Part shown: in pieces, positions 20,482 through 34,984 of the stretch
Layout of the letters: every line of letters begins with the position of its first letter
Numbering within the stretch: the stretch's first letter is position 1
DNA from: Oscillospiraceae bacterium
Lineage (GTDB): Bacteria > Bacillota > Clostridia > Oscillospirales > Ruminococcaceae
Assembly (NCBI GenBank): GCA_009783205.1
Contig: WRHO01000020.1
Coordinates: 1 to 37,473 of the forward strand
Length of the DNA stretch: 37,473 bases
Direction of reading: 5' to 3'
Notes under the pieces: generated by a model
The model's database searches: none
What the model was told of the DNA's origin: nothing
Seen by the model: the letters and a program-made list of their open reading frames with translations, nothing else
Position numbers and translations under genes: made by a program

Positions 20482-20544
20482 AGCCAAACAAGAGATAAGA
20501 CAAAAGGACGGGCTTTGCTCGTCCGAGGGGCGAATCTTGACGTC
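20482..20544 (+). repeat. Palindromic element copy a (subfamily A), inside the ABC operon
   Basis: Starts GCCAAACAAGAG and ends AATCTTGACGTC. The core GGACGGGC pairs with GCTCGTCC around TTT. It fills most of the spacer between the ATPase and permease genes, in the same orientation as transcription. Confidence 0.9.
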
Positions 20545-20568
20545 AGATTAAGGGAGTGATTTTTAACA

Positions 20569-22227
20569 ATGAATAAAGGGAATTTTGACAATACGGGGCG
20601 TCTTGTCCGCTTTATGCTTAGGCGCGAGCGTTTAATCGCGACAATATGGATTATTATTCTCGTGTTGTTTTCTATGGTATTGGCACCGGGTCTCGACACA
20701 ATGTCTGTCGATGACGAGGCGCGGGCACAAATCGCGGGAATATTCGACAACCCTATAATGGTATCAATGATGGGACCGGCATACGGAGATTCAACCGGCG
20801 CATTGTACAGCGGTATGATGTTGTTATGGTATTTAATCGCGGTTGCCGTAATGAACATTTTTTTAGCCGTTCGCCACACCCGCGCCGACGAGGAGACCGG
20901 GCGCGCAGAGGTGGTACGTTCGCTTCCGGTCGGACGTTTGGCGGGAATTAACGCGACAATGTTCACCGCTTTAATTATAAACACAATTCTTGCGTTATCG
21001 ACGGGACTCGGTTTAGCCTTAACCCAAACGCCCACAATGGATTTTGCGGGATGTATGCTTTATGGTGCGGTTTCGGGCGCGGCGGGGCTTGTGTTTGCAG
21101 CAATAACGCTCGTATTCTGTCAACTCTCTCAAAGCACAAGCGGGGCGGTAGGGTTGTCGTTTTTATCATTAGGCGTGTTTTATATGCTGAGAGCCTTCGG
21201 CGACATAGACTCCGATTTTGAAATTCTGTCGTGGTTAAGTCCGCTCGGCTTGGCGTCGCGTGCAAAAACCTTTGCGGGAAACAGTATCGTTCCGCTTTTC
21301 ATTATGTTGATAGCCGCCGCCGCAATTGCCGCGTTAGCATATAAGCTTAATTCGATGCGTGACCTCGGACAAGGATTTATCCCCGCAAAGCCGGGCAGAA
21401 GCTCTGCCGCCGAATCATTGTTATCCCCGTTTGGCTTATCGTTCAGGCTTTTACGAAAAATGATTATAATATGGTTAATTATTATGTTTTCGTTAGGCGG
21501 TTCCTACGGTACAATAATCGGCGATATAGGCACATATGTATCAAATATGCCGCAATACCTCGAGATAATCGGTCTTCCGGAGGAGGTTGTAGCTACCTTA
21601 ACGGACGAACAAATGACCGAGCTTACCGACGAATACGCCGACATGATTATCGAATATTTTGGCGTATTTATAACGAGTATGATGACATTAATCGGGTTAA
21701 TTCCGGTAATGCTCGCCGCGACAAGGCTTCGCGCGGAGGAAAAAGAGGGGCGCGTCGAGCATATACTTTCCCGAGCGGTTTCGCGAAAGAAATACATCGT
21801 CGGGTTTGTTTCAATTGCTTTTGTCGTGTCCGCCCTTATGCAGCTTGCGACCGCGGCGGGTTTATACCTTGTAGCCGCAACCGGCGAGAAAAACCCTTTC
21901 TCATTCGGCGGATTATTAAAGGCGTATATTTCATATGTACCGGCTATGTGGCTCATCATTTCTGCGGCAATATTGCTTATCGGTTTCCTTCCGAAAATAA
22001 GCGGGGCAATTTGGGGGTATTACGGTGTTGTGTGCTTCTTGGTGTTCATAGGCGGTATGCCGGGGCTTCTCCCCGAATGGCTGACATATATCTCACCGAT
22101 GAAGTTTATACCGCAATTGCCGCTTGAAGAGTTTAGTCTTTCTGTGATGTTGATTATGACGGGACTCTCGATAATGCTTACCGTAATCGGAGTTATCGGA
22201 TACGGCAAACGGGATATGACGCTTTAG
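20569..22227 (+). CDS. ABC transporter permease (two-half ABC-2 type exporter)
   Basis: A 552-residue membrane protein with about twelve hydrophobic segments in two similar halves. In both halves a short basic stretch precedes RAEE or RADEETGRAEVVR, followed by LPVGR or AVSRKKY: the doubled-ABC-2 layout of Firmicutes and Actinobacteria antibiotic exporters (tetronasin-resistance type). An extracellular-looking acidic loop (LPEEVVATLTDEQMTELTDE) lies near the middle. The ATG follows AAGGGAG. It works with the ATPase upstream. The true substrate is unknown; a resistance role is only an inference from relatives. Confidence 0.9.
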   Translation: MNKGNFDNTGRLVRFMLRRERLIATIWIIILVLFSMVLAPGLDTMSVDDEARAQIAGIFDNPIMVSMMGPAYGDSTGALYSGMMLLWYLIAVAVMNIFLAVRHTRADEETGRAEVVRSLPVGRLAGINATMFTALIINTILALSTGLGLALTQTPTMDFAGCMLYGAVSGAAGLVFAAITLVFCQLSQSTSGAVGLSFLSLGVFYMLRAFGDIDSDFEILSWLSPLGLASRAKTFAGNSIVPLFIMLIAAAAIAALAYKLNSMRDLGQGFIPAKPGRSSAAESLLSPFGLSFRLLRKMIIIWLIIMFSLGGSYGTIIGDIGTYVSNMPQYLEIIGLPEEVVATLTDEQMTELTDEYADMIIEYFGVFITSMMTLIGLIPVMLAATRLRAEEKEGRVEHILSRAVSRKKYIVGFVSIAFVVSALMQLATAAGLYLVAATGEKNPFSFGGLLKAYISYVPAMWLIISAAILLIGFLPKISGAIWGYYGVVCFLVFIGGMPGLLPEWLTYISPMKFIPQLPLEEFSLSVMLIMTGLSIMLTVIGVIGYGKRDMTL

Positions 22228-22235
22228 ATATAGTC

Positions 22236-22300
22236 GGGTCACGATATACCAATGTTTTACTTCCAACAACGGAAACAAGAACATGGGTGTATCGTGACCC
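22236..22300 (+). repeat. Long inverted repeat after the ABC permease, arms like the tRNA-Glu 3' end
   Basis: GGGTCACGATATACC (22236-22250) pairs with GGTGTATCGTGACCC (22286-22300), with smaller inner stems ATGTT/AACAT and TTCC/GGAA. The outer bases GGGTCACGATA match the 3' end and trailer of tRNA-Glu(CUC). No T-run follows, so termination is uncertain. Confidence 0.7.
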
Positions 22301-22306
22301 GTGGGG
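22290..22306 (+). repeat. 17-bp copy of the tRNA-Glu 3' end (possible attachment site or tRNA remnant)
   Basis: TATCGTGACCCGTGGGG here is identical to 22743-22759, which is the 3' end of tRNA-Glu(CUC) plus its trailer. The two direct repeats bracket the antitoxin, the toxin remnant and palindromic copy b. This fits an att-like scar or the stump of a lost tRNA-Glu gene. Confidence 0.7.
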
Positions 22307-22321
22307 AAAAGGGAGCATATG

Positions 22322-22519
22322 CTAATCCCAATTTATATCATGGTGATTTACATATTCGCCGTTTCTGATTTCATTACGTCCTTTTTCAATCGCCTCTATT
22401 TCGTCGTGCAACGGTGTATCTTCTGATATAAATTTTGATAATACACAAAAAAGCACATCTAATTCGTTAGGATTTACAACATCTATTAAATCGTGTAATT
22501 GTTGACGGTTTACGCTCAT
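22322..22519 (-). CDS. Antitoxin-like small protein of a RelE/ParE-type module
   Basis: This acidic 65-residue protein (MSVNRQQLHDLIDVVNPNEL at the start, GEYVNHHDINWD at the end) resembles clostridial antitoxins that follow a RelE/ParE-family toxin gene. Such antitoxins have a short helical N-terminus and a toxin-wrapping C-terminal tail with DEIEAI and a final hydrophobic-acidic motif. A good AAAGGAG site precedes the ATG. Directly upstream on the same strand is a 26-codon remnant of the toxin gene, under a consensus promoter. No intact toxin is in the window, so this appears to be an orphan antitoxin. Identification is by resemblance and not certain. Confidence 0.65.
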   Translation of the reverse strand: MSVNRQQLHDLIDVVNPNELDVLFCVLSKFISEDTPLHDEIEAIEKGRNEIRNGEYVNHHDINWD

Positions 22520-22542
22520 AACTTAAATTCTCCTTTTGATTA

Positions 22543-22623
22543 TCAATCTTTGTACGCTTCTCCACGAGGATTATTCATTTTATTTATCGCTTTAACAGCT
22601 TGCTTTGAATATTTTATATCCAT
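22543..22623 (-). pseudogene. Internally deleted RelE/ParE-type toxin remnant (26 codons)
   Basis: The frame reads MDIKYSKQAVKAINKMNNPR then GEAYKD and stop. The first 16 residues match the usual start of clostridial RelE/ParE toxins, and the ending RGEAYK looks like their C-terminus. The middle, about 60-70 residues with the active site, is gone, and the join keeps the frame. It is expressed from a consensus promoter with an AAGGA site and lies 23 nt before the antitoxin, the gene order of this TA type. It should be non-toxic. Confidence 0.6.
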
Positions 22624-22643
22624 TATTCACCGTCCTTGTTGTG

Positions 22644-22672
22644 ATTATAGCACGGTTTCGGAGAATTGTCAA
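22644..22672 (-). promoter_or_regulatory. Consensus promoter of the toxin-antitoxin remnant
   Basis: On the minus strand TTGACA (22672-22667) and TATAAT (22649-22644) are exactly 17 bp apart. Start expected near 22637, 14 nt before the toxin remnant's ATG. Confidence 0.85.
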
Positions 22673-22690
22673 TGAATAATCATCGACAAA

Positions 22691-22740
22691 GCTAAACAAG
22701 AGCAAAAGCCCAAAGGACGGGCTTTTGCTCTTGTTTTGGG
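22691..22740 (+). repeat. Palindromic element copy b: 18-bp perfect hairpin
   Basis: The left arm (22694-22711, from AAACAAGAG to AAAAGCCC) and the right arm (22719-22736, GGGCTTTT to CTCTTGTTT) are perfect complements around AAAGGAC. It begins with the element flank GCTAAACAAGAG but lacks the CTTGACGTC end. Placed 8 nt after the 3' end of the tRNA cluster, it may terminate tRNA transcription and shield it from the TA remnant. Confidence 0.85.
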
Positions 22741-22747
22741 CTTATCG

Positions 22748-22819
22748 TGACCCGTGGGGGAATCGAACCCCCGTCACCGCCGTGAGAGGGCGGTATCTTA
22801 ACCGCTTGACCAACGGGCC
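22748..22819 (-). tRNA. tRNA-Glu (anticodon CUC)
   Basis: Acceptor GGCCCGT pairs with ACGGGTC (one G-T), discriminator A. The anticodon stem CCGCC/GGCGG holds CTCTCAC, giving CTC, which reads GAG. The T-arm GGGGGTTCGATTCCCCC is intact. CCA is not encoded. It is the last of three tRNAs on this strand. Confidence 0.96.
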
Positions 22820-22872
22820 CTATTTTGTACAATTCCTAAAACTCTCTATTTCAACTACACTCCTTAGTGAAA

Positions 22873-22935
22873 GCTAAACAAGAGATAAGCCCAAAGGACG
22901 GGCTTTGCTCGTCCGAAGGGCGGAATCTTGACGTC
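22873..22935 (+). repeat. Palindromic element copy c (subfamily A) between the tRNA-Glu genes
   Basis: Full-length: GCTAAACAAGAG at the start, core GGACGGGC/GCTCGTCC, end AATCTTGACGTC. It has one extra G (GGGCGGAATC), a frame-changing difference not present in the copies inside genes. Confidence 0.92.
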
Positions 22936-22975
22936 GGGTAAGCCGAAACAGGGGGGGAATCGCTAAAAAACATCA

Positions 22976-23047
22976 TGACCCGTGGGGGAATCGAACCCCC
23001 GTCACCGCCGTGAAAGGGCGGTATCTTAACCGCTTGACCAACGGGCC
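22976..23047 (-). tRNA. tRNA-Glu (anticodon UUC)
   Basis: Nearly identical to tRNA-Glu(CUC) but the loop is CTTTCAC, giving anticodon TTC for GAA and GAG. Acceptor GGCCCGT/ACGGGTC, discriminator A, no encoded CCA. The pair probably arose by duplication. Confidence 0.96.
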
Positions 23048-23052
23048 TTATT

Positions 23053-23082
23053 TACAGTGTACAGTTGACAATTGACAGTTAA
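23053..23082 (+). repeat. TTGACAATTGACA heptamer tract between tRNA-Glu and tRNA-Met
   Basis: ACAGTTGACAATTGACAGTT here matches the tract after rpoC (13006-13025) base for base over 20 nt. It lies in the 43-bp spacer between tRNA genes. Confidence 0.7.
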
Positions 23083-23090
23083 AGTCGTCA

Positions 23091-23164
23091 TAGCGGCAGT
23101 CGGATTTGAACCAACGACACCCCGGGTATGAACCGAGTGCTCTAGCCAACTGAGCTATGCCGCC
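23091..23164 (-). tRNA. tRNA-Met (anticodon CAU), elongator type
   Basis: Acceptor GGCGGCA pairs with TGCCGCT, discriminator A. The anticodon stem CTCGG/CCGGG holds TTCATAC, giving CAT. The body (TAGCTCAGTTGGCTAGAGC) closely follows the Bacillus elongator tRNA-Met and not the initiator or Ile2 type. It is first in the Met-Glu-Glu cluster, behind a consensus promoter. Confidence 0.94.
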
Positions 23165-23183
23165 TAAACACACAACAAGGCAT

Positions 23184-23212
23184 ATTCTAACACATATTTT
23201 CATATTTGTCAA
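23184..23212 (-). promoter_or_regulatory. Promoter of the tRNA-Met-Glu-Glu cluster
   Basis: TTGACA (23212-23207) and TAGAAT (23189-23184) on the minus strand are 17 bp apart. The -35 box begins inside the descending arm of the terminator hairpin of the PIN/NYN gene. Confidence 0.82.
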
Positions 23213-23237
23213 CAACTTTTTTAAAAAAAGTTGTTGA
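23209..23237 (-). terminator. Terminator hairpin of the PIN/NYN gene, overlapping the tRNA promoter
   Basis: On the minus strand TCAACAACTTTTTTT and AAAAAAGTTGTTGA form a long self-complementary stem. It follows the PIN/NYN stop by about 40 nt. Its arm supplies the first bases of the tRNA -35 box. Confidence 0.65.
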
Positions 23238-23277
23238 TTTTTTTCTGTTTATTTCTTAAACTGTCATTAAACTGTCA

Positions 23278-24210
23278 TTAACCCGTCTTTTTTGCGGAAA
23301 ACTTTGCCTTTATATTACGATATATTTCCACGCCTTTTTTCTGACCAAAACGCTTCACCGTGCCTATATACAACTCATGCGACGACTTCGCCTCGGACAA
23401 AAGCTTATCTACCTCTTTGATTACCTCGATATCCATGCCGTCGGCTTGCGCTGCGGATTCTTTCTTGTTTTCATCTTGAGCTTGCTCAACAATGACTTCT
23501 TTTGTTTCATCTTGTGCCTCAACAGGAAAAAGCGCGAGCGGCTCGGGTTGTTCCGCATTTTTTACGGGGCGTTTTGCAGATTTTATGGGCTTTATCGGTT
23601 TTGCGGGCTTACTCGGTGTAACGGAAACGGCGGGTGCTTCGGCTGTTTCAACCGGTTCAACGGGGATTAAAGGCTCAACCGATTCCTGTACCGTGTTTAT
23701 TGGAAGCTCTGCGGTGTTACCGAGCATTTTAACGGGTTCACCCGACGTCAAGATTCGCCCCTCGGACGAGCAAAGCCCGTCCTTTGGGATTATCTCTTGT
23801 TTAGCTTTTACCGTCTTTGTTTGCCCAAATACCGCTTTTATAGTGAAAAATCGCTTTACACAAGGCTTTACGTCGATATTGCCCGACGCCCAAAAGTCGA
23901 TAACAAAATCAAAGCCCGCATCCCTGCTTATAAGATAAAACTCCGTTTTTTCGTGCGCGTCGGAATGTACATTTATTAGATAACCTAAATATGTTGACAT
24001 TTGAAAATCGAGAGCGTTACGCCCCCCTCTGCGTACTTTATAATAACTCAGCTTTGCCGGACTGAACATAAGCTTATGCATCATTTCGAACGTGATTGTA
24101 TCGGCATTAATGCTGTGAAAAATCACAACCTCATCGTTTTCGGTGAGAGAATCCACCCCCGCGAGCCCTTCAGAATGTACATTTTCAAAATCTATCAAAA
24201 AAATTTTCAT
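23278..24210 (-). CDS. PIN/NYN-like nuclease-domain protein carrying an in-frame palindromic element
   Basis: Residues 1 to about 133 form a PIN/NYN-like fold: LIDFENV with Asp-7, ALDFQ with Asp-68, and SRDAGFDF with Asp-97 and Asp-101 give the acidic cluster of a metal-dependent RNase. A Pro-rich low-complexity linker (about 157-245; SKPAKPIKPIKSAKRPVK) leads to a C-terminal helical segment (VKRFGQKKGVEIYRNIKAKF) typical of these proteins. Residues 135-156 (KQEIIPKDGLCSSEGRILTS) are encoded by palindromic element copy d, exactly at the domain-linker junction. The ATG follows AGGAG with a long 12-nt gap. RNA cleavage is inferred from the fold; the target is unknown. Total length is 310 residues. 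Confidence 0.82.
   Translation of the reverse strand: MKIFLIDFENVHSEGLAGVDSLTENDEVVIFHSINADTITFEMMHKLMFSPAKLSYYKVRRGGRNALDFQMSTYLGYLINVHSDAHEKTEFYLISRDAGFDFVIDFWASGNIDVKPCVKRFFTIKAVFGQTKTVKAKQEIIPKDGLCSSEGRILTSGEPVKMLGNTAELPINTVQESVEPLIPVEPVETAEAPAVSVTPSKPAKPIKPIKSAKRPVKNAEQPEPLALFPVEAQDETKEVIVEQAQDENKKESAAQADGMDIEVIKEVDKLLSEAKSSHELYIGTVKRFGQKKGVEIYRNIKAKFSAKKTG
23744..23805 (-). repeat. Palindromic element copy d, in frame inside the PIN/NYN gene
   Basis: Read along the gene it starts GCTAAACAAGAG and ends ATCTTGACGTC. Core GGACGGGC/GCTCGTCC is intact. One base differs from the usual copy, giving EIIPKDG instead of EISPKDG. Confidence 0.93.
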
Positions 24211-24262
24211 TGTTAAGTATTTCTCCTGTATTTTTTATATGTTTTTTCTTTATCAGAAATAT

Positions 24263-24291
24263 AGTATATCATACTTTTGAATTAAATGCAA
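24263..24291 (-). promoter_or_regulatory. Promoter of the PIN/NYN gene
   Basis: TTGCAT (24291-24286) and TATACT (24268-24263) are 17 bp apart, with TGA before the -10 as an extended element. Confidence 0.7.
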
Positions 24292-24339
24292 GTTTTCGGG
24301 AAATAATATTATTACAATTTTATACTAAGGAGGATTATT

Positions 24340-24519
24340 ATGACACCGAAAGAACTGTTATACCTTGAGGATTCGTTGGGAATGGAGCAACAGCTTCATG
24401 TAAAATGTACCGATTACTCATCGAAAATCCAAAACCCCGCGCTTAAAACAATGTGTTCACAAATGGCGCAGCAACACCAAACTCATTTCACAAGCCTTAT
24501 GAACCAACTCAATGGTTAA
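24340..24519 (+). CDS. Small spore-coat-associated protein (59 residues)
   Basis: This short gene encodes MTPKELLYLEDSLGMEQQLH followed by a helical, Gln- and His-rich chain ending SLMNQLNG. It resembles the small ferritin-like helical proteins that accompany Coat F genes in clostridia. An excellent AAGGAGG site precedes the ATG. A Coat F-domain gene follows after a hairpin. No consensus sigma-A promoter is visible upstream, unlike most other operons here, which fits a sporulation sigma factor. Role in the coat is inferred from neighbours and family resemblance. Confidence 0.75.
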   Translation: MTPKELLYLEDSLGMEQQLHVKCTDYSSKIQNPALKTMCSQMAQQHQTHFTSLMNQLNG

Positions 24520-24555
24520 GCTAAAAAGAGGGAATTTATTTCCCTCGTTTAGCTT
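24518..24555 (+). terminator. Hairpin after the small coat gene
   Basis: AAGCTAAA with GAGGGAA pairs with TTCCCTC with TTTAGCTT around TTTAT, with a small internal loop. It begins in the stop codon. Only the G-A-rich inner stem is strong, and no long T-run follows, so partial termination or RNA protection is likely. Confidence 0.55.
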
Positions 24556-24590
24556 GACGGTTAAAGGCTAAACAAGAGCCAAACAAGTAA
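24548..24590 (+). repeat. Fragmentary palindromic element copy e
   Basis: Contains a TAGCTTGACG end fragment, then GGCTAAACAAGAGCC and AAACAAG, the start flank of the element, without a core. Probably a decayed or rearranged copy between the two coat genes. Confidence 0.55.
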
Positions 24591-24608
24591 AGGAGAATGT
24601 AAAAAACT

Positions 24609-24872
24609 ATGCAAAACAAACAAATGACCGACAGAGAGTATATGGAGGATTTATTGATGACCTCTAAAACCCTTAACGGAATGTACCACTATGCAACCAC
24701 AGAGGCGTCCACCGAACCCATACGCAGACAATTTAAATCCAACCTTTCCGATTCGATTGAAATGCAACACAGTATCTATTCGGCAATGCAGCAAAACGGC
24801 TGGTACCCTCAGCAACAGGCTCCGACACAACAAATTAGTCAAGTTAAAACTAAGTATCAGTCTTCTATGTGA
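24609..24872 (+). CDS. Spore coat protein, Coat F domain
   Basis: This 87-residue protein has the helical Coat F pattern: DREYMEDLLMTSKTLNGMYH, then ATTEAS, then a second helix ending with YSAMQQNGWYPQQ. The C-terminal Gln-rich tail is low complexity. Such proteins sit in the spore coat, so the organism probably forms spores or descends from spore formers. The start has AAAGGAG a few bases upstream. The tandem palindromic array begins one base after its stop codon. Confidence 0.88.
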   Translation: MQNKQMTDREYMEDLLMTSKTLNGMYHYATTEASTEPIRRQFKSNLSDSIEMQHSIYSAMQQNGWYPQQQAPTQQISQVKTKYQSSM

Positions 24873-24873
24873 A

Positions 24874-25051
24874 GTTAAACAAGAGATAAGCCAAAAGGAC
24901 GGGCTTTGCTCGTCCTTTGGGCGAATCTTGACGTCGGGTAAAGCTAAACAAGAGATAAGCCCAAAGGACGGGCTTTGCTCGTCCTTTGGGCGAATCTTGA
25001 CGTCGGGTAAAGTTAAACAAGAGGTAAGCCCCCGACATCAGTTGGGGGCTT
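24874..25051 (+). repeat. Tandem palindromic elements f (two subfamily A copies plus one with a terminator-like core)
   Basis: Units start at 24874, 24943 and 25012 with G(T/C)TAAACAAGAG, period 69 bp (23 codons). In the second, a 15-bp stem (24959-24973 with 24977-24991) closes on TTT. The first has one mismatch in the same stem. The third unit keeps the start flank but has a different core: AAGCCCCCGAC pairs with GTTGGGGGCTT (25026-25051). Confidence 0.93.
25026..25051 (+). terminator. Terminator of the coat genes, built from a palindromic element core
   Basis: An 11-bp stem with five G-C pairs in a row and loop ATCA, followed by CATATTATATCG. It lies between the coat genes and the convergent diguanylate cyclase gene and may serve both directions. 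Confidence 0.65.
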
Positions 25052-25070
25052 CATATTATATCGTTTAACG

Positions 25071-26117
25071 CTATTTTGATTCAGTTTTTTTTGAGTCTTT
25101 TGAATCTTTTGAGTCTTTATCGGGAGCTTCACCGGCGCTTATTTCCGCATTGTACAATTCAACCCGATTTCTGCCGTTAGCCTTAGCCTTATAAAGTGCT
25201 TCATCGGCGGCTTTTATCGCTTCATCATAATTGCGGTCGGGCGACATTTGCGCTACGCCGATACTCGTGGATACCGGAATATCAATCCCCTCAAAATGAA
25301 CGGGGGATTCATTGACAATTAGGCGTATACGTTCGGCAAAGCTTATTGCGATTTCCGAATCCGGCGCGGATAAAAACATTACAAATTCCTCGCCGCCGTA
25401 ACGTCCGAAAAGGTCATACGGTCTTACCGTTCCTTTTATTTTTTCGGCAACAACCTTAAGAACCTCGTCGCCGGCGGCATGACCATAAGTATCGTTGACT
25501 TTTTTAAACAAATCGAGGTCGAGCATACATATGAAGGTCGGCTCGTTTTTCTTAGCCGCAATAACCGCATGGGTTTGAATTAATTCGCCAAAACGCCGCC
25601 GATTGTAAACGCCCGTGAGCGCGTCATAATGCGCGGAGTTTTCAAATTTTTCGGTAAGCCCCGAAAGCTTCATAATATCGTCTATATGCGTCTTAAGCTG
25701 TTTCGTCATTTTGAAATAAACGCTGTTAATCAACGCTATTTCATCTTCCGTATCGTCAGCCATAACAATTCCGATTTCTTCAAGACCCTCATTAGCCTTC
25801 CTTATGCTGAGAATAAGCTCGAGCATTGGCTTACAGATGGCTTTGTGAAGAATTTTTATGGATTTTTTCACAACGACAAAGGTCAGCCACCCGGTTATAA
25901 CTAAGGTGAGTATGGAAAATAAAATACCAATATTCCTAACCGCTTCGGTTCCGTCGGAATTATCTATCTGCGACATAGAATAAAGCGTTATAACTATTAT
26001 CGAAATAATAGAAACCAAAGCGAAAACAACCGCCAATCCGACACAAGCAATTAAAAAAGTCTTTTTAATTTTACTGTCTACCGACGATTTCGCGTAAACA
26101 ACCTTTTTCTTATCCAT
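25071..26117 (-). CDS. Membrane-bound diguanylate cyclase (GGDEF)
   Basis: This 348-residue protein makes cyclic di-GMP from two GTP. Two membrane helices (about 20-48 and 63-85) are followed by a HAMP-like and coiled-coil region and a GGDEF domain. The active site is GGEEF at about 240-244, and the inhibitory RxxD site (RPYD) lies five residues before it, so product feedback is expected. The short extracellular loop is too small for a large sensor domain. The C-terminus has a repeated DSK motif (KDSKDSKDSKK) from a 9-nt DNA repeat. It stands alone behind a consensus promoter. The output (motility, biofilm or fibre attachment) is unknown. Confidence 0.95.
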   Translation of the reverse strand: MDKKKVVYAKSSVDSKIKKTFLIACVGLAVVFALVSIISIIVITLYSMSQIDNSDGTEAVRNIGILFSILTLVITGWLTFVVVKKSIKILHKAICKPMLELILSIRKANEGLEEIGIVMADDTEDEIALINSVYFKMTKQLKTHIDDIMKLSGLTEKFENSAHYDALTGVYNRRRFGELIQTHAVIAAKKNEPTFICMLDLDLFKKVNDTYGHAAGDEVLKVVAEKIKGTVRPYDLFGRYGGEEFVMFLSAPDSEIAISFAERIRLIVNESPVHFEGIDIPVSTSIGVAQMSPDRNYDEAIKAADEALYKAKANGRNRVELYNAEISAGEAPDKDSKDSKDSKKTESK

Positions 26118-26147
26118 TCTATGCTTCCCCCGTTCGTCTTTTTTTAC

Positions 26148-26176
26148 ATTATAGCATATGTAGCGCGTAATGTCAA
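26148..26176 (-). promoter_or_regulatory. Consensus promoter of the diguanylate cyclase gene
   Basis: TTGACA (26176-26171) and TATAAT (26153-26148) on the minus strand, exactly 17 bp apart. The ribosome site GGGGGAAG follows. Confidence 0.85.
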
Positions 26177-26304
26177 CAAATTTTAGGCTCGGTTGTTATT
26201 TTCTACAAAAAACACATATTTTGGTAAATATTTTTGTGAATATTCACCAAATAATCATGTTTTTATCTTGCTTTCGGTATCTGTTCGATATATTTATCTT
26301 AACA

Positions 26305-26391
26305 TAACCTATTATGAAACAACCGCAAAATGCGTTTTAAAAAGCCGCGTTTATAATCAATTTATTTAAAAGCTCTTGACATAATAGGTTA
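26305..26391 (+). promoter_or_regulatory. Perfect 12-bp inverted repeat around the DUF1538 promoter, possible operator pair
   Basis: TAACCTATTATG (26305-26316) and CATAATAGGTTA (26380-26391) are perfect complements 63 bp apart. The right half overlaps the last base of the -35 box and the spacer. The 327-bp divergent spacer (26118-26444) otherwise holds AT-rich DNA, a TTTTGGTAAATA/TATTCACCAAAT-like dyad near 26218-26250 and the two divergent promoters; no gene is seen. Confidence 0.5.
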
Positions 26392-26404
26392 ATTAAATTA
26401 TAAT
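26376..26404 (+). promoter_or_regulatory. Consensus promoter of the DUF1538 gene
   Basis: TTGACA (26376-26381) and TATAAT (26399-26404), 17 bp apart. One arm of a 12-bp inverted repeat overlaps the -35 and spacer, so repression at this site is plausible. Confidence 0.85.
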
Positions 26405-26444
26405 AAGCTTTATTATAACCATTTATAATTTTAGGGGGAGTTGC

Positions 26445-27935: not shown

Positions 27936-27954
27936 AAGGTTTTCGGAGGTTGCC

Positions 27955-28803
27955 CTATAAAGCCCCCGGTGAAAAAAGCACACGTTCAATCCCGTTAAAA
28001 TCTTTTCTCTTCTCAACGCGAAGCCCGACGTTCTCCATTAATTGACCGACCGCCCCCGCCTGTCCGTCGCCGACCTCACAGGCGAAAAGACGGGCTTTTT
28101 GAAGTCGTTCGCCCCATACGTTGAAAAAGGCGCGGTAAAAGTCAAGTCCGTCGTTTCCACCGTACAATGCCGTTTGGGGTTCATGGCGAACCTCCGCCTG
28201 TAAGCTTTGCATTTCACAGCCCGACAAATACGGCGGATTGATGACAACGATTGACAATTGCTCTGTAATAAACAACAATTGTTTTAAGCTTAGTACATCG
28301 TCTTCGATTATTGTGACATTATTTTCGACGTTATTAAGCTTTATGTTTGATTTGAGGTATTCTGCTGCCTCCTTGTATTTTTCGACCGCAATTACGTTAC
28401 AGCCGATTTCTTTTACAAGGGATATCCCGACGCAGCCCGTTCCGGCGCATAAATCTAAAACTGTTGCCCCTTCGGACGAGCAAAGCCCGTCCTTTGGGCT
28501 TATCTCTTGTTTAGCTCTTATGCAATACTCCTTAACTAAATCAACTAACAATTCCGTTTCGGGGCGCGGAATGAGTACCCCTTTTCCCACTTTGAAAGGA
28601 TAACCGTAAAATTCCCACTCGCCGAGAAGATACTGTAGCGGTTCTCCTTTAATTCGACGATTAACCGTTTCTTTCACAGACGGTGCGTCGAGGTCGCCGA
28701 GACCCGTATATTTTATAATCCAATTTGCTTCTTGTACGGCGTTTTCTATTCCCGCGCATTTTAGAGCCTGTTCAATATCTTTTTGTCTCCATTGTTTTGT
28801 CAG
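27955..28803 (-). CDS. prmC: Release-factor glutamine methyltransferase PrmC, carrying an in-frame palindromic element
   Basis: PrmC methylates the GGQ glutamine of release factors using S-adenosylmethionine. The SAM-binding motif VLDLCAGTGCVGISL and the substrate motif NPPY (about residues 189-192) are present, as is the helical N-terminal domain. That domain (QWRQKDIEQALKCAGIENAV to NRRIKGEPLQYLLGE) extends well upstream of the first GTG at 28677, so the gene must start earlier. The only plausible codon is CTG at 28803, which overlaps the aminotransferase stop as CTGA. Residues 97-112 (AKQEISPKDGLCSSEG) come from palindromic element copy g, placed in the loop just before the SAM motif. Length is 282 residues. 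Translation is probably coupled to the upstream gene. Confidence 0.92.
   Translation of the reverse strand: MTKQWRQKDIEQALKCAGIENAVQEANWIIKYTGLGDLDAPSVKETVNRRIKGEPLQYLLGEWEFYGYPFKVGKGVLIPRPETELLVDLVKEYCIRAKQEISPKDGLCSSEGATVLDLCAGTGCVGISLVKEIGCNVIAVEKYKEAAEYLKSNIKLNNVENNVTIIEDDVLSLKQLLFITEQLSIVVINPPYLSGCEMQSLQAEVRHEPQTALYGGNDGLDFYRAFFNVWGERLQKARLFACEVGDGQAGAVGQLMENVGLRVEKRKDFNGIERVLFSPGAL
28470..28515 (-). repeat. Palindromic element copy g, in frame inside prmC
   Basis: Read along the gene it starts GCTAAACAAGAG and runs through the GGACGGGC/GCTCGTCC core, then stops after TCCGAAGGG; the AATCTTGACGTC end is missing. The remaining 16 codons keep the frame. Confidence 0.92.
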
Positions 28804-29981
28804 TATATCTTTTTGGCGACCTTCGATAAGAGTTCAACCCCTTTTTCAATTTGTTCATCCGTAGGATACGAAAAGTTCAACCTAAACGAAAGACAAGGGT
28901 CTCTCTCGTCTACTAAAAATGCGTTCCCCGGAACAATAGCGACCTTATTTAATACCGCTTTTTTACAAAAATCAACCATATCCCCCCCCGGAAGAGTTCC
29001 CCATATAAAAAGCCCCCCCTCCGGTTCGGTGAAATCAATCGAGACGGGCATAGAAAACTTTAACGAGTCCAACATGAGTCTCGCTTTATTTTTATATAGC
29101 ATTTGAACCTTTTCAATATGCGCGCTAAAATCCGTTTGGGAAACAAACCTGTGCGTCAACATTTGCGGTAATATGGGTGTATGAACCGTCGACGCCTGTA
29201 TACAAACTACCGCTTTTTGGGTAATATGCGTCGGCGCGCACATGAACCCCACCCGTAACCCGGGCGCAAGCGTTTTTGAAAAGCTTCCGGCATATACAAC
29301 CAAGCCGTCGGAATCGAGTTCTTTTAAAGTGGGAATATCCGCACCCGCAAAACGCAAATCACCGTAAGGATTGTCTTCGACAATCATAACGCGATACTTT
29401 TTCGCTAATGCCAAAACTGCTTTTCTGCGTGCTAACGACGTACATTTACCGGTGGGATTTTGAAAATTCGGGATTAGGTATATAAACGCGGTTTTCGGGT
29501 TTGCGCGCAAGGTCGCTTCGAGCTTTTCCAACTCTATTCCCTCGTTGTCCATAGGTACACCCGCCAATTTAGCTCTGTAAGAGCGGAACGCATTGAGCGA
29601 GCCGATAAAAGACGGTGCCTCGCATATGATTGTTTCGCCCTCGTTGCACACTAATTTGGTCATGACCTCCATAACCTGTTGCGCCCCCGCCGTGATAATA
29701 ACATCGTCGTCCTCCGATTTATATATCCCCTTTTGGAGAAGGTCGGCTTTAATCCATTCCCGCAACGGCGAATACCCCTCGGATATGGAGTATTGAAGCG
29801 CGGTTATGGGGTCTTTTTGCATTATTTCGGCGGTAATTCGCGATATTGTTTCAACGGGAAACGCCTCGGGAGACGGATTCCCCGCCGCAAAGCTAATCAT
29901 CTCCGGGTCGTTCATATATTTGAATATCTCGCGTATAACCGATGGTTGAAGCGAAATCATTCTTTCCGCAAAAATGTTCAT
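28800..29981 (-). CDS. PLP-dependent aminotransferase (class I/II, 2-aminoadipate/aromatic type)
   Basis: This 393-residue enzyme belongs to fold-type I aminotransferases of the LysN/MocR-core type. The cofactor lysine lies in YAGSFSKTLAPGLRVGF, the aspartate in VEDNPYGDLRF, and the NFQNPTGKCTS and final RLNFSYP (substrate-carboxylate Arg) blocks are intact. It transfers an amino group between an amino acid and 2-oxoglutarate or a similar acceptor; the exact substrate is not readable. An AAAGGA site precedes the ATG. It is 13 nt after rnr and overlaps prmC by 4 nt, so it belongs to the secG-rnr operon. Its presence where smpB often lies is unusual. Confidence 0.94.
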   Translation of the reverse strand: MNIFAERMISLQPSVIREIFKYMNDPEMISFAAGNPSPEAFPVETISRITAEIMQKDPITALQYSISEGYSPLREWIKADLLQKGIYKSEDDDVIITAGAQQVMEVMTKLVCNEGETIICEAPSFIGSLNAFRSYRAKLAGVPMDNEGIELEKLEATLRANPKTAFIYLIPNFQNPTGKCTSLARRKAVLALAKKYRVMIVEDNPYGDLRFAGADIPTLKELDSDGLVVYAGSFSKTLAPGLRVGFMCAPTHITQKAVVCIQASTVHTPILPQMLTHRFVSQTDFSAHIEKVQMLYKNKARLMLDSLKFSMPVSIDFTEPEGGLFIWGTLPGGDMVDFCKKAVLNKVAIVPGNAFLVDERDPCLSFRLNFSYPTDEQIEKGVELLSKVAKKIY

Positions 29982-29994
29982 ATACTAATATCCT

Positions 29995-32052
29995 TTACAC
30001 AAGCTCAAAATCCACAAGCCCCATTGGTATATTACAACCGACACACTTAATTTTTACTTTGTCGCCGAGGGTATATTTTACACCCGTGACGGAATTCGAT
30101 ATGCTTACGCCGTCCGACTGATACCCTCCCGAGCCGTCGCCGGTTGTTTCGCGTGCGGCGGATATATCGCTCCTGAAGCTCACCCTTCCTTCGACGGTGT
30201 TTTCGAGCATGACATATATGCTCATATCGGTAACGCCCGAGATAACCCCGTCAAATTCCTCATCTATATGCGCCGTCATATATTCGGCAAAGTAAAACTT
30301 GTTACAATCGCGCTCGGCGTTGACCGCCCTAAGCTCTGTGTTGGTCGATTTTAACGCGGCTCCGTGTGCAAATTTTCCGTACCGTTTTTTCATTCGCTCC
30401 GGTTTCTCTTCGACAATATAATCCGATAAAATACGATGAATACTCAAATCGGGATATCGGCGTATAGGCGAGGTGAAATGTGCGTATTCGTTCATGACTA
30501 ACCCAAAATGTCCTAACGGCTCGTGTGAATATTTTGCCTTCATCATAGCGCGTAATACAGCCATATTCACAACGTCAAACCCGCTCGTATCTATTGGGCT
30601 TATCTCTTGTTTAGCTTTAGCGGCGCGTAAAACGCCCGAAAGACTTTCGGCGGTCGGCTTTAATTCGGGAACAGAGATACCCAATCCTTGAAGCGTTTCC
30701 GAGAGTCGCGTAAGCTTTTCGGTTGCCGGTGCCTCATGAACGCGATAAACAAAGGGGAGTTCTTTTTCCATTGCGAGTCGCGCCGCGGCGTTATTCGCTA
30801 AGAGCATAAACTCCTCAATAATGCCTTCCGAAACGGCATTATTGCCGCTTTCTCGCCTTTTTATATCGACAACGCTTCCGTCGTCGCCGCATATAATTTT
30901 ACATTCGGGAGAATCCAACGCGGGGGCGTTTCTTCCCTCGCGATTCTTTTTGAGCGTTGTGGAAAGCTCGAGCATATCGGGTAACTGTTCAATAACGTCC
31001 TTGTACTTGTCGTTGAACTCATTACTTCCGTCGAGAATGGCGTTAATCTCGCTGTACACCCCTTGTACACGCGACCTTATAACGGTTTTCTTAAACTCAA
31101 AGGATTTAAACTCGCCGCTTTTCCCAACCTCCATAAGACAGGAAAAAGCAAATCTGTCTACGTTCGGGTTAAGCGAGCATATGCCGTTAGATAAAGCTTT
31201 TGGGAGCATAGGCACCACCAAATCGGCAATATAAACGCTCGTCCCCCTCGAAAACGCCTCTGTGTTCAATTGACTTTCGGGGGTAACATAATGCGAAACG
31301 TCGGCGATATGAACGCCGAGTCGGTATCCGCCCCGCACCTTCTCGATACTTATTGCGTCGTCTATATCCTTTGTATCCGCGCCGTCAATTGTAAATATAG
31401 AAAGGTCGCGTAAATCCAACCTCTTTGGTATTTCTTCGGCGTTAATGGTACTCCCGCACCATTGTGCCTCTTCCTCCGCCTCCTCGGAAAAGGCTCTTTC
31501 TATGTTCTTTTCCTCTAAGTATGCGTCGACGCATACCCGCGCACTTTGAGAAGAGCCGTAGACGCTCATTATATCGGCTATGTGCAGATGATGCTTCGCG
31601 CCGCGCGATTTTAGCGCAAAGCTTACCTTATCGCCCGCTTTGAGCTTATTTCCCCCCCAACTGCCTATTTCGAGCGGGTAGCGCGAACCGAAGCTGTCCG
31701 GTATCAGACACAGCGTACCGTCATTGTCGACGACGGTACCCACCAATAAAGCGTCGCTCGCTTTTAAAATTCTCGTAACCTTTGCCTCGGGCAACTGGGT
31801 TTCTTCTTTTGTTTTTGGGAGTCGCGACGATTTGCCCATTCTTTCAAAAAGTATTGTATCGCCCGGAACCGCGCCGAGCAAATCTCTTCCCGATACAAAA
31901 TATTCCTGTTCCGAGCTTTCCTCTTTGATAAACCCGTGTGTTCTCGCGACGCGCAGTATTATGCCTTTAAAGGCGGCAACGCTTTTAACACGTTTGCCGC
32001 CTTTTTTCATATTCTTATTTTTGATTTTTAGTTTTTTGGGCTTTTTAGACAT
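29995..32052 (-). CDS. rnr: Ribonuclease R
   Basis: RNase R is a processive 3'-5' exoribonuclease that degrades structured RNA. The protein has 685 residues: a Lys-rich N-terminus (MSKKPKKLKIKNKNMKKGGK), two cold-shock-like domains, the catalytic RNB domain with the acidic cluster TIDGADTKDIDDA at 221-233, and a C-terminal S1 domain (FDGVISGVTDMSIYVMLENT). Residues near 480-487 (AKQEISPI) derive from a short piece of the palindromic element in a loop of the RNB domain. It starts 2 nt after secG, the classic Firmicutes pair. The following genes are an aminotransferase and prmC, not smpB. Confidence 0.95.
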   Translation of the reverse strand: MSKKPKKLKIKNKNMKKGGKRVKSVAAFKGIILRVARTHGFIKEESSEQEYFVSGRDLLGAVPGDTILFERMGKSSRLPKTKEETQLPEAKVTRILKASDALLVGTVVDNDGTLCLIPDSFGSRYPLEIGSWGGNKLKAGDKVSFALKSRGAKHHLHIADIMSVYGSSQSARVCVDAYLEEKNIERAFSEEAEEEAQWCGSTINAEEIPKRLDLRDLSIFTIDGADTKDIDDAISIEKVRGGYRLGVHIADVSHYVTPESQLNTEAFSRGTSVYIADLVVPMLPKALSNGICSLNPNVDRFAFSCLMEVGKSGEFKSFEFKKTVIRSRVQGVYSEINAILDGSNEFNDKYKDVIEQLPDMLELSTTLKKNREGRNAPALDSPECKIICGDDGSVVDIKRRESGNNAVSEGIIEEFMLLANNAAARLAMEKELPFVYRVHEAPATEKLTRLSETLQGLGISVPELKPTAESLSGVLRAAKAKQEISPIDTSGFDVVNMAVLRAMMKAKYSHEPLGHFGLVMNEYAHFTSPIRRYPDLSIHRILSDYIVEEKPERMKKRYGKFAHGAALKSTNTELRAVNAERDCNKFYFAEYMTAHIDEEFDGVISGVTDMSIYVMLENTVEGRVSFRSDISAARETTGDGSGGYQSDGVSISNSVTGVKYTLGDKVKIKCVGCNIPMGLVDFELV
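30592..30615 (-). repeat. Truncated palindromic element copy h, in frame inside rnr
   Basis: Only the start flank GCTAAACAAGAGATAAGCCC remains (20 nt), coding AKQEISP in the same frame as the other copies, followed by unrelated sequence. It may be the residue of a partly deleted element. Confidence 0.75.
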
Positions 32053-32054
32053 TA

Positions 32055-32561
32055 TTACTCCTCAGTATTCTCGCCGTCCTCAGCTTCGTTGTCGCCTTCA
32101 TCGGCATCGTTGTCGGCGTCATTACCCTCGTTGTCAAGTTCTTCGTCGCCTTCGTTGTCGCCAATCGCGTTCCCGTCGTCCATATCGACATCGTCAAAAT
32201 CTTCTTCCTCGTTTATATCGGCGTATTCGTCGTCATAATCGCCCTCATCTGCCCAATCGTCGTCGAGAACGAGCGAATTGTCATCGGCGGGAGCCTCCTC
32301 GGTATCGTTACCGAAATACACGGCTACTAAATTTACGGCAATTGCCACCGTAAAGAAAACGGTAGCCACAACCGCGGTCAGCTTTTTTAGCTTCATTTCC
32401 TTTGACCGCCCCATATTACGTTGATAATAATTATCGTTACTTTGTCCGGTGATACTCTGTGACATTCCGCCTTTTTGCGCCCCTTGAAAAAAAACGACAA
32501 CTATTATTAATATGCAAGATATAATCAAGCAAATCGCGCTAATTAACTCAAATGGGTTCAT
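32055..32561 (-). CDS. secG: Preprotein translocase subunit SecG with a long acidic C-terminal tail
   Basis: SecG is a small membrane component of the SecYEG channel. Residues 3-25 and 61-83 form the two membrane helices, with the family motif FFQGAQKGGMSQSITGQ between them. The start is ATG 32561, behind AGGAGG; an upstream ATG at 32600 would add non-family residues. Unusually, an 84-residue tail follows the second helix. About half its residues are Asp or Glu (43 of 84 by my count) and none is Lys or Arg, so the protein reaches 168 residues against the usual 75 or so. The tail is disordered-looking and on the cytoplasmic or outer face depending on topology. It is first in the secG-rnr operon. 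Confidence 0.93.
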   Translation of the reverse strand: MNPFELISAICLIISCILIIVVVFFQGAQKGGMSQSITGQSNDNYYQRNMGRSKEMKLKKLTAVVATVFFTVAIAVNLVAVYFGNDTEEAPADDNSLVLDDDWADEGDYDDEYADINEEEDFDDVDMDDGNAIGDNEGDEELDNEGNDADNDADEGDNEAEDGENTEE

Positions 32562-32609
32562 TGTTTTATACAACCTCCTGATATTTTTGTGAATTTTCAT
32601 GTAGGGTTA

Positions 32610-32638
32610 AGTATATATTGTTTTTTTGTATTTGTCAA
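32610..32638 (-). promoter_or_regulatory. Promoter of the secG-rnr operon
   Basis: TTGACA (32638-32633) and TATACT (32615-32610) on the minus strand, 17 bp apart. It starts 10 nt after the pcrA stop. An AT-only dyad AGAAAATA/TATTTTCT (32640-32658) overlaps that stop. Confidence 0.82.
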
Positions 32639-32647
32639 TAGAAAATA

Positions 32648-34984
32648 TTATATTTTCTCAATTTTTACGAAATTTGCCATAATTTTCTTTGTGCCTACTC
32701 CGTCAAAGCTTATTTCGAGGAGCGAATCGTTGCCCATTTCCTGAACATCAATAATCGTCCCGTCGCCGAATATTTTATGCTTAATTCGCTCGCCGTTCTT
32801 GTATTTTACGGCGCATGACGGCGGCGACTGCGGCTTTATTCTCGATTTTTGGCGGGCTTTATCTGTGAAAGGAAAACTGCCCGACGTCAAGATTCGCCCC
32901 TCGGACGAGCAAAGCCCGTCCTTTGGGCTTTGCTCTTGTTTTGCCTTATTTAACTTTTTTTGCGGAATAGTCGCGCCTTTTTTTCTCTTTTCGTTAATAT
33001 GAATAAATTCCTCGGGAATCTCCCGAACAAATCGAGAAACCGGGTTCCGCTGTGTCATTCCGTAAAGGAGACGTTGTTTCGCGGTCATGATGTGCAAAGC
33101 TCGTTTTGCGCGGGTAATGGCAACATACATAAGACGACGCTCTTCTTCAATATCCTCCGGCTCGGCGAGCGAGCGAAACGACGGGAACAACCCCTCCTCC
33201 GCGCCTATAAGGAACACACGCCCGAATTCAAGTCCTTTAGCCGCGTGTATTGTCATCATCGCAACCCTGTCCTCGCCGCTTTCATAATCGTCCGTATCCG
33301 AAACGAGCGCAACCTGTTCAAGAAAGTCTTGAAGCTCGGCTTCGGGGTTATCCTCGCTAAACTTAACCGCCGCCGACTTGAGTTCTTTAATGTTCTCGAG
33401 ACGGGACAAGCCTTCGTCGCCCTCCGCCTGTAACATTTTTAGGTAGCCGCTTTTTTCGGTGATAAAGTCTATCAAATCTGAAAGGCTTTTTTCTTCCGAC
33501 GAGTTGACATCTTGGTTAAATTCATCAAACTCCTTAAACATTGCCGCGATTTTTTCGAGCGAGGTCGCTTTTGTTCTCAAGGTCGCAAACATACCCGCCT
33601 CCGCCATGACATCAATCGGACTCATGCCCGTTTCGTCAGAGACGCGCTCAATTTCGCTTTGCGTCACCTCGCCTATTCCGCGTTTCGGTTCGTTTATTAT
33701 TCTTCTGAAGCGGATTGAATCGAGCGGATTTGCAATTATACTCATATACGCCACAATGTCTTTTATTTCCTTGCGGTCATAGAAACGAACGCCGCCGATA
33801 ATACGATACGGAACGGCCGCCCGCGCCAACGCCAATTCTACCGTCCGCGACTGTGCATTTGTACGGTACAAAACGGCGTTTTCGCCGAAGGAAATGCCCC
33901 TTCCCTTCCCCCGTTCAATTTCTCGGGCGATGCTCGTCGCTTCCTCCTGTTCATCGTTTAAAATGTGAAGTTCAACCTTATCGCCGCCTTCTATTGAGGT
34001 AAAAAGGGTTTTTGGCTTACGTTGAGTATTTTTCTTTATAACGCCGTTTGCCGCTCCGATAATTGCCGCCGTCGAACGATAATTTTGTTCGAGCTTAATC
34101 ACCCTTGCGTTAAATTCCTCTTCAAATGAAAGTATGTTTTCAATGGTTGCGCCGCGAAATCTGTAAATACTTTGGTCTTCGTCGCCCACAACGCATAAGT
34201 TGCCCTTTCTCCCCCCCGCCAAAAGAGACACGAGCTTATATTGAGCATAATTTGTATCCTGATACTCGTCAATCATTATATAGCGAAACCGCTCCCGCCA
34301 CTTTTCCAAAATATCGGGGTTGTTCTCAAAAAGCTCAACCGTTTTCATGATTATATCATCGAAATCGAGCGCGTTAGCCGCTTTCATGCGGCTTTGATAC
34401 AATTCGTACACCTTTGCGACCGTTTCGCGAAAAAAATCACGTTTCCCTTTTTCATCAACCTTTTCAAAGCTTTTTGATGTAATAAGCTTGTCCTTGGCGC
34501 GTGAAATTGCAAAAAAAACCTGTTTGGGAGAGGTCGTTTTTTCGGATATATTCAAATCCTTCATGCACGACTTAACCAACCGCAAAGAATCGTCGGTGTC
34601 ATATATAGTAAAACCTTTTTTGTAACCGACCGCCTCAATTCCTCGGCGAAGTATTTTCACACAAATAGAGTGAAACGTCCCCGCCCACGACAAGGAATCA
34701 TTTTGCCCGTCGTATAACCCGGCATCGCCCTCGCCGATATTCATTGAGGACAAGCGTTCGCGAAGCTCTCCGGCGGCTTTATTTGTGAACGTAACCGCTA
34801 AAATTTGCCACGGGCGCGCAAGCCCGCTCTCAATTATATTTGCGATTCGACAGCATAATACCGACGTTTTGCCGCTCCCCGCACCCGCGATAATCAAAAG
34901 CGGCCCCTCGGTATGCGAAACCGCTTCTTTTTGTGCGGGGTTGAGTCTTTCTGTTAATTTATCGTTTAATATATCATTCATCAT
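32648..34984 (-). CDS. pcrA: ATP-dependent DNA helicase PcrA (UvrD/Rep family), carrying an in-frame palindromic element
   Basis: PcrA is the 3'-5' superfamily 1 helicase of Firmicutes, needed in repair and in clearing replication-transcription conflicts. The protein has 778 residues. The Q-motif LNPAQKEAV, Walker A GAGSGKT at 34-40, motif II IDEYQDTN near 236-243 and the later motifs (TIHAAKGLEF, YVAITRAK) are intact. The last 50 residues form the small Tudor-like domain (RIKHKIFGDGTIIDVQEMGN) that binds RNA polymerase. Residues about 680-701 (KQEQSPKDGLCSSEGRILTS) are encoded by palindromic element copy i, in the flexible linker between helicase core and C-terminal domain. The start ATG overlaps the SPFH gene by 4 nt (ATGA). 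Confidence 0.96.
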   Translation of the reverse strand: MMNDILNDKLTERLNPAQKEAVSHTEGPLLIIAGAGSGKTSVLCCRIANIIESGLARPWQILAVTFTNKAAGELRERLSSMNIGEGDAGLYDGQNDSLSWAGTFHSICVKILRRGIEAVGYKKGFTIYDTDDSLRLVKSCMKDLNISEKTTSPKQVFFAISRAKDKLITSKSFEKVDEKGKRDFFRETVAKVYELYQSRMKAANALDFDDIIMKTVELFENNPDILEKWRERFRYIMIDEYQDTNYAQYKLVSLLAGGRKGNLCVVGDEDQSIYRFRGATIENILSFEEEFNARVIKLEQNYRSTAAIIGAANGVIKKNTQRKPKTLFTSIEGGDKVELHILNDEQEEATSIAREIERGKGRGISFGENAVLYRTNAQSRTVELALARAAVPYRIIGGVRFYDRKEIKDIVAYMSIIANPLDSIRFRRIINEPKRGIGEVTQSEIERVSDETGMSPIDVMAEAGMFATLRTKATSLEKIAAMFKEFDEFNQDVNSSEEKSLSDLIDFITEKSGYLKMLQAEGDEGLSRLENIKELKSAAVKFSEDNPEAELQDFLEQVALVSDTDDYESGEDRVAMMTIHAAKGLEFGRVFLIGAEEGLFPSFRSLAEPEDIEEERRLMYVAITRAKRALHIMTAKQRLLYGMTQRNPVSRFVREIPEEFIHINEKRKKGATIPQKKLNKAKQEQSPKDGLCSSEGRILTSGSFPFTDKARQKSRIKPQSPPSCAVKYKNGERIKHKIFGDGTIIDVQEMGNDSLLEISFDGVGTKKIMANFVKIEKI
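32883..32945 (-). repeat. Palindromic element copy i, in frame inside pcrA
   Basis: Read along the gene it starts GCAAAACAAGAGC and ends ATCTTGACGTC, with the GGACGGGC/GCTCGTCC core intact. It has GCAAAGCCC where most copies have GATAAGCCC, changing Ile to Gln in the peptide. Confidence 0.94.

Follow-up and report, generated by a model that had tools for sequence, protein, structure and literature searches.

A palindromic hairpin element carried in frame by conserved protein genes of an Oscillospiraceae genome

How does a short palindrome come to lie, open and in frame, inside several conserved protein genes of one clostridial genome? The question is raised by contig WRHO01000020.1 of an Oscillospiraceae bacterium (assembly GCA_009783205.1), whose 37,473 nucleotides are the window of this analysis. 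A sequence-only reading of the window had described a palindromic element inside four protein genes, always in sense orientation and in the frame read as AKQEISP. This description is borne out, the copy in rnr being a 25-nt fragment. With a probability of about 0.8, we interpret the element, termed type A, as a non-autonomous mobile hairpin, with selection filtering for insertions that preserve the reading frame. The copies in the four genes are:

23741 to 23809, minus strand: type A in a PIN7/NYN-type gene (23278-24210, minus), E<1e-8, read KAKQEIIPKDGLCSSEGRILTS, past the PIN domain
28468 to 28516, minus strand: 3'-truncated type A in prmC (27955-28677, minus), model match at 28448 with E<1e-8, read RAKQEISPKDGLCSSEG
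30594 to 30618, minus strand: 25-nt 5'-end fragment in rnr (29995-32052, minus), read AKAKQEISP
32880 to 32948, minus strand: type A in pcrA (32648-34984, minus), read KAKQEQSPKDGLCSSEGRILTSG

All four are sense and use the AKQE frame, contributing AKQEIIPKDGLCSSEGRILTSG to the NYN protein, AKQEISPKDGLCSSEG to PrmC, AKQEISP to RNase R and AKQEQSPKDGLCSSEGRILTSG to PcrA, where the insert follows the UvrD_C match, which ends at residue 636, and precedes the tudor match, which begins at 731. The rnr fragment matches the element exactly over 25 bases; it is a remnant and the weakest of the four cases, the model match at 30568 being weak (E 1.5e-4) and outside the set of strong copies.

That set was defined by a covariance-model search of the whole source genome (G000; 1.91 Mb in 49 contigs, the window being contig C20; completeness 96.6%, contamination 0.09%). 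The model, constructed from 10 aligned copies, gave 64 matches at E<=1 and 29 strong type A copies at E<1e-8 (best E ~2e-21), so that the genome-wide check proposed in the sequence-only reading returned further copies as well as sister families. Seven of the 29 copies, two of them a tandem pair, lie in the window, which is 2% of the genome, and are thus clustered (binomial p ~1e-6); five further copies are found on contig C40. With up to two mismatches allowed, the window contains the 12-base end GCTAAACAAGAG 20 times, whereas 100 shuffles give an expectation of 2.55 and a maximum of 6.

The element is a 69-bp hairpin with the ends AAAGCTAAACAAGAG...CTTGACGTCGGGTAAA. Internal loops divide its fold into three helices, and a 3-base loop closes it. 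Conservation begins sharply at AAAGCT, six bases ahead of AAACAAGAG, and extends through CTTGACGTCGGGTAAA. In the register of the model 25 of the 29 copies are exactly 69 bp long, head-to-tail units repeat with a 69-bp period, and the lengths that break the frame (70 and 67 bp) are those of L026 and L046, both of them non-coding. The consensus has three frames free of stops, one sense (KAKQEISPKDGLCSSEGRILTSG) and two antisense, and stops in the other two sense frames, as had been noted for the window; in individual copies additional frames are sometimes open. The AKQE frame is hydrophilic (grand average of hydropathy -0.7).

Related genomes show the carrier genes in their element-free state. 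Five type A sites were compared in genomes of relatives, prmC and tsaE in G041 and 15 genomes of the same genus, and comEC, polA and mutS in seven genomes. Both prmC and tsaE are present in 16 of 16 relatives, the insert in none; tsaE has gained exactly 23 codons, which lie between IGK and GII, and prmC a net of about 15 codons relative to G003. For comEC all seven matched relatives lack the insert, and for polA and mutS six relatives each were matched, five of which are readable at the site and lack it (5/5 in both cases). The comEC and mutS sites, the latter in an N-terminus that is variable in relatives, are less clean cases than tsaE. The proposed comparison with element-free orthologues thus finds relatives without the insert wherever the site is readable, and the claim of in-frame entry into conserved genes of a Clostridia lineage, with orthologues that lack the residues, stands. 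At the comEC site of G006 (L148) there is an unrelated loop, longer than in most relatives, which has TCGGACG in common with the element and is possibly a decayed copy.

At the protein level, a regular expression for the insert peptide was run for PrmC, the PIN protein and RNase R against the 119 best listed homologues of each (own entry excluded) and had no match. The RNase R fragment falls in a length-variable loop, about +8 relative to a solved RNase R and +5 relative to the closest listed homologue. In an acetolactate synthase-like (ALS-like) protein the insert occupies positions 196-218, and query residues 198-239 (42) face 19 of a solved synthase that is well aligned on both sides. An AlphaFold2 model of PrmC with its insert has a mean predicted local distance difference test score of 90.1 (62 over residues 61-70); it places the start of the insert at the end of helix 39-58 and the remainder in a less confident loop before the motif I strand. 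The eight best PDB matches of the model are all PrmC/HemK, and the fold as predicted is kept with the insert. The prmC open reading frame (ORF) has 240 codons, a GTG start and a short N-terminus; PF17827, which is present in many of the listed homologues, is not listed for it.

None of the five tested sites is common to species (0/5), and these type A insertions therefore look younger than the species; a GtrA-like site, described below, may be an exception. Chance similarity, ancestral residues or contamination might be suspected in a draft assembly of 49 contigs, but they are hardly credible given E-values down to 2e-21, a contamination of 0.09%, copies in three genomes and in different genes, and homologues without the residues.

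Genome-wide, 15 of the 29 copies are located inside long open frames. The AKQE frame is used by 11 of them, in the PIN7 gene, prmC, pcrA, polA, mutS, tsaE, lepB, single TerB-domain, MBOAT and YfhO-like genes, and one gene that matches no Pfam family; two are read antisense, in comEC and, as a second copy, in the same YfhO-like gene; and two use another sense frame, in the ALS-like gene and in a gene for a leucine-rich repeat protein. A single frame and orientation therefore characterizes the four window genes and not the genome, and the antisense frames, described earlier as open but unused, are in use in comEC and the YfhO-like gene. The latter gene (L037, L052, contig C40) carries its two copies in opposite orientations, each in frame, the sense copy being shortened to 51 bp with the frame still kept. 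Several of the carrier genes are essential in model bacteria. Carriers involved in repair or replication are PcrA, identified by Pfam, and by similarity PolA, MutS and, in G003, an AddA-like protein; the names polA, mutS, comEC, AddA and FolC are from similarity recognized by eye, and other domains are from Pfam.

Copies near the start of the frame in polA, mutS and lepB of G000, and in the PP2C and response regulator genes of G003, could be 5' leaders with translation starting downstream, in which case only internal copies would be translated. The same caution is voiced for other intragenic repetitive extragenic palindromic sequences (REPs) (PMC3733652). Against this, in polA an ATG-AAA precedes the element and the stretch from the element to the conserved LLLIDGNS lacks an ATG, a TTG being present within the element, and the explanation is inapplicable to prmC, tsaE, comEC, rnr, pcrA, the ALS-like gene, MBOAT and YfhO. 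We regard it as unlikely, though by no means far-fetched, for the start-proximal copies.

Splicing or bypass of the insert after transcription, leaving proteins of normal length, is suggested by the stable repeated hairpin and by bypassed palindromes reported elsewhere (PMC6649704). However, the elements inside genes are open and keep the frame, including the shortened ones of the YfhO-like gene (51 bp), prmC (about +15 codons) and rnr (25 nt), which argues against skipping, since skipping would not require open frames. Moreover, Rfam yields only tRNA in the window at the gathering score, a result on which a known RNA family was also discarded as a candidate. Skipping is accordingly very improbable.

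From the observations on type A we infer past mobility, target recognition, translation and a selection filter. Conserved ends, AAAGCTAAACAA and, opposite it, GACG (CGTC on the bottom strand), flank a stem-loop that would be free to vary in sequence. Insertion would take place at short A-rich sites similar to the element's own 5' end, and insertion into the ends of other copies may have produced the head-to-tail arrays. Insertions that break genes would be eliminated by selection, whereas an element of 69 bp, divisible by 3 and open in one sense and two antisense frames, would be tolerated at termini, linkers and loops, surviving inside genes because of that length and those stop-free frames; there it would be translated as ~23 additional residues. 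The flanks of G000 copies do echo the element start (AAAGG/AGAGG in tsaE, AAGCTA in polA, AAAGC in mutS, AGAGC in comEC), and the empty sites of relatives read AAA-GGC in tsaE (G006) and ATG-AAA-TTT in polA (G021).

Orientation and frame can be examined separately. The element strand is the sense strand in 13 of 15 coding copies. A long ORF (at least 120 codons, stop to stop) ends no more than 350 bp upstream of 10 of the 14 non-coding copies; eight of these 10 are sense to it, five of the eight within ~10 bases of its end. Pooled, 21 of 25 coding and non-coding copies are sense; AAAG itself is sense in 62% of its occurrences in window ORFs, and against this share p = 0.016 (some tandem copies are double-counted). 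A peptide adopted for a function, for instance as a tag or tether, would through selection on the peptide make one frame predominant, as is consistent with the 11 of 15 coding copies in the hydrophilic AKQE frame and with the DNA-repair and replication carriers. The excess of this frame has p = 2e-4 against open-frame shares alone, but once the AAAG phase in 20 window ORFs is allowed for together with the open frames, the expected share is ~0.50 and a residual bias of p ~0.01 is left (the copies in the ALS-like and leucine-rich repeat genes excluded); the frame bias was therefore set aside as proof of a peptide function. In addition, orthologues at the five tested sites manage without the insert, and the eight of 10 non-coding copies that are also sense mean that no peptide is needed to explain the orientation. 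A function of the peptide thus appears improbable, and we read frame and orientation as mainly a product of mechanism plus purifying selection.

Outside the four genes, the window contains these further elements:

19424 to 19690, plus strand: head-to-tail array of a sister type B with ends GTTAAACAAGAG...CTTGACGTC and a CGGAGGCGTCGGTGGC hairpin core, period 60-61 bp
20479 to 20547, plus strand: intergenic type A, E 8.4e-19, flanked by co-directional ORFs (19706-20455 and 20569-22227)
22687 to 22742, plus strand: variant, a near-perfect palindrome AAGCTAAACAAGAGCAAAAGCCC...GGGCTTTTGCTCTTGTTTTGGGC with a weak E of 8.4e-6, adjoining tRNA-Glu
22869 to 22938, plus strand: type A of 70 bp (one base extra), E 1.6e-20, between two tRNA-Glu genes
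24520 to 24560, plus strand: intergenic type C (GCTAAAAAGAGGGAATTTATTTCCCTCGTTTAGCTTGACG), read from the sequence
24567 to 24578, plus strand: lone 5' end GCTAAACAAGAG, a motif match
24870 to 24938, plus strand: type A, unit 1 of a 69-bp head-to-tail pair, E 2.5e-19, directly 3' of a short ORF
24939 to 25007, plus strand: type A, unit 2 of the pair, E 3.4e-21
25012 to 25023, plus strand: GTTAAACAAGAG, third 5' end of this array; an unrelated GC hairpin comes next

Four of the five intergenic copies reported in the sequence-only reading are recovered as type A (at 20479, 22869, 24870 and 24939), and the one placed at 22691 is a different palindrome without the CTTGACGTC end; the 19424-19690 array, the type C element at 24520-24560 and the 5' ends at 24567 and 25012 had not been included. 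The type B array, of four to five head-to-tail units, begins 2 bp after a tRNA-Leu gene (19343-19422). The two tRNA-Glu genes (22744-22825 and 22972-23053) are an 82-nt duplication, 96% identical, with elements beside and between them.

Types B and C belong to a wider set of sister elements that keep the ends and differ in the hairpin core. Counted against a reversed control, the end pattern CAAGAGN{4,34}CTTGACG, not all matches of which are elements, occurs 19 vs 1 times in G000, 26 vs 3 in G003, 25 vs 0 in G006, 7 vs 2 in G020 and 12 vs 5 in G041, with 1 vs 1 in G010, 1 vs 3 in G017 and 2 vs 4 in G021. For sister elements in genes, 20 regions (one ending at a contig end) were picked from weaker model or pattern matches, and overlap with an ORF alone was not accepted as proof of a coding insertion. 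Read by eye, forms in open frames include those in GtrA-like, radical-SAM and P-type ATPase (antisense) genes, an N-terminal form and a C-terminal tail; others are intergenic. The radical-SAM-like protein (L001, G000 C1:106025) has ~2.5 units of 33 bp, read AKQERSLTS, in its N-terminal part. The GtrA-like gene of G000 (L188 480-1060, contig C23) has ~2.5 units of 54 bp, and its G006 counterpart (L156) has a short form, apparently at the same position; the site may be a hotspot or may reflect core turnover after one old insertion.

Strong type A matches were obtained only from G000 and two Oscillospiraceae metagenome-assembled genomes (MAGs). Five of 41 genomes, G000 included, have a match at E<=0.01, and only G000 (29) and G003 (13) at E<1e-8. 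Among 394 sampled genomes of the order, G000 gave the sole match at 1e-4 under strict filters, with few candidates scored per genome. An exact 22-base pattern retrieved 31 stretches from a genome collection, all in the Oscillospiraceae MAGs Nt197P3bin88 and Emb289P3bin33, which come from termite guts. The copies in Emb289P3bin33 form a subfamily of their own, AAAGAAGAG...CTTGACAACA, and include an antisense one in a folC-like frame. At the settings used, no match was found in viral contigs (exact 22-base pattern), phages or plasmids.

Several results weigh against the reading of a mobile hairpin filtered for frame. Covariation within type A is modest: in the 41 of 59 element rows used for the base-pair count, three pairs are double-changed, a number equalled by 21 of 500 shuffles, the covariation score is equalled by 60 of 500, and versions of the structure slid along the alignment have double changes as numerous as the real one. 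Covariation was therefore rejected as proof of the hairpin, the case for which rests on the folding of differing cores: of 24 members picked by hand and diverse in sequence, 21 have better folds than their dinucleotide shuffles (z<-2; mean z -3.6), and three, the shortest forms among them, fail this threshold. Flank-to-flank matching (67 of 77 type A rows, 10 without an anchor having been dropped; 48 of the 67 non-tandem) exceeds that of permuted pairs at p ~0.02 only, a weak signal of target-site duplication. The Y1 (IS200/RAYT-type) transposase PF01797, the only transposase family searched, has no match in G000, G003, G006 and G010. All genomes are draft assemblies.

Among the individual sites, L043 (G000 C6:6471-6539) stands out by a flanking 10-bp direct repeat, GTTTTGTAGA, which would put the element end at CTTGAC there and is the best candidate for a target-site duplication; over the set as a whole the signal is weak, and a clear duplication is not established. 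An IS200/RAYT transposase was dropped as mobilizer in view of the missing PF01797 matches in the four genomes, G020 having one weak match and the E. coli control being positive. GTTAAAC resembles the attC motif GTTRRRY; no partner box was seen beside it, and an integron attC site was dropped without a formal test.

A more far-reaching version of the proposal is possible, if short of probable. An enzyme that recognizes the ends, of the host or since lost, might move exchangeable cores, with insertion on the coding strand built in and orientation and partly frame preset, so that in-frame peptides would have arisen in essential Clostridia proteins independently of Rickettsia. If so, any palindrome placed between the conserved ends would be mobile, and the GtrA-like gene would exemplify turnover of the core at a fixed site.

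Comparison with known systems starts from the Rickettsia palindromic elements (RPEs), for which no mobilizer is known. Like type A, RPEs are dispersed palindromic repeats found in frame within conserved protein genes and also between genes, and in R. japonica the peptides of eRPE-4 are located in solvent-exposed areas (PMC2229807, PMC3767692, PMC10969869). RPEs are described as 100-150 bp long and as elements of Rickettsia and Wolbachia, and R. japonica sites are common to rickettsial orthologues, whereas type A has 69 bp, shorter sister units, different ends, head-to-tail arrays, a distribution in Oscillospiraceae MAGs and no shared site among the five tested.

CGTC REPs, which include RPE-4 and RPE-6, are described as lacking a dedicated transposase and as having intragenic copies often in DNA repair genes, with 8-9 bp stems, 4-5 base loops, mostly CCA tails and dimers that are mostly head-head, head-to-tail ones being negligible (PMC3733652). 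That survey lists CGTC REPs for five phyla, with Firmicutes neither among them nor named in its main text, and it records intragenic REPs in several species outside Rickettsia and its relatives (PMC3733652). Type A is similar in the unpaired CGTC/TGTC tag by the stem and the A-T pairs at the stem foot: on the bottom strand, most copies of G000 have CGTCAAG (a few have CGGCAAG) and those of Emb289P3bin33 have TGTCAAG, and GACG is unpaired in the folds. The repair targets are also comparable, with a UvrD-type helicase, DNA polymerase I and RecBCD among those given for REPs, and PcrA, PolA, MutS and the G003 AddA-like protein here. However, the type A stem is interrupted into three helices with a 3-base loop, the tail is of AAACAA type, the other end reads TTGTTTAGC on the CGTC strand, and adjacent units are head-to-tail in the cases observed. 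Type A is therefore not filed as a CGTC REP, as stem, loop, tail and dimer type disagree despite the tag.

GTAG REPs, associated with RAYT (REP-associated tyrosine transposase) proteins, are likewise tagged hairpins sometimes found inside genes, but type A has the ends GTCGGGTAAA without GTAG, and G000 has no PF01797 match; two of the junctions in the type B array contain the word GTAG. With regard to classical miniature inverted-repeat transposable elements, which are defined by terminal inverted repeats and target-site duplication, type A has ends that share AAA(GC) as direct and not inverted repeats, and flank matching at the p ~0.02 already given. Palindromic elements also lie within genes of Magnusiomyces mitochondria, where they are skipped by the ribosome, whereas preservation of the frame here points to translation (PMC6649704).

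The top results of a search of open-licence literature contained no report of coding palindromes in Bacillota. The insert-free orthologues in the same genus offer a natural before/after set for the acceptance of new 20-residue segments by proteins, the family bears on the movement of palindromes without a known transposase, and core choice, site and frame are now testable across species. Judged by behaviour, type A would work in the manner of RPEs and intragenic REPs; Rickettsia and its relatives provide the best-known coding palindromes, and those described here have different ends and occur in a different phylum.

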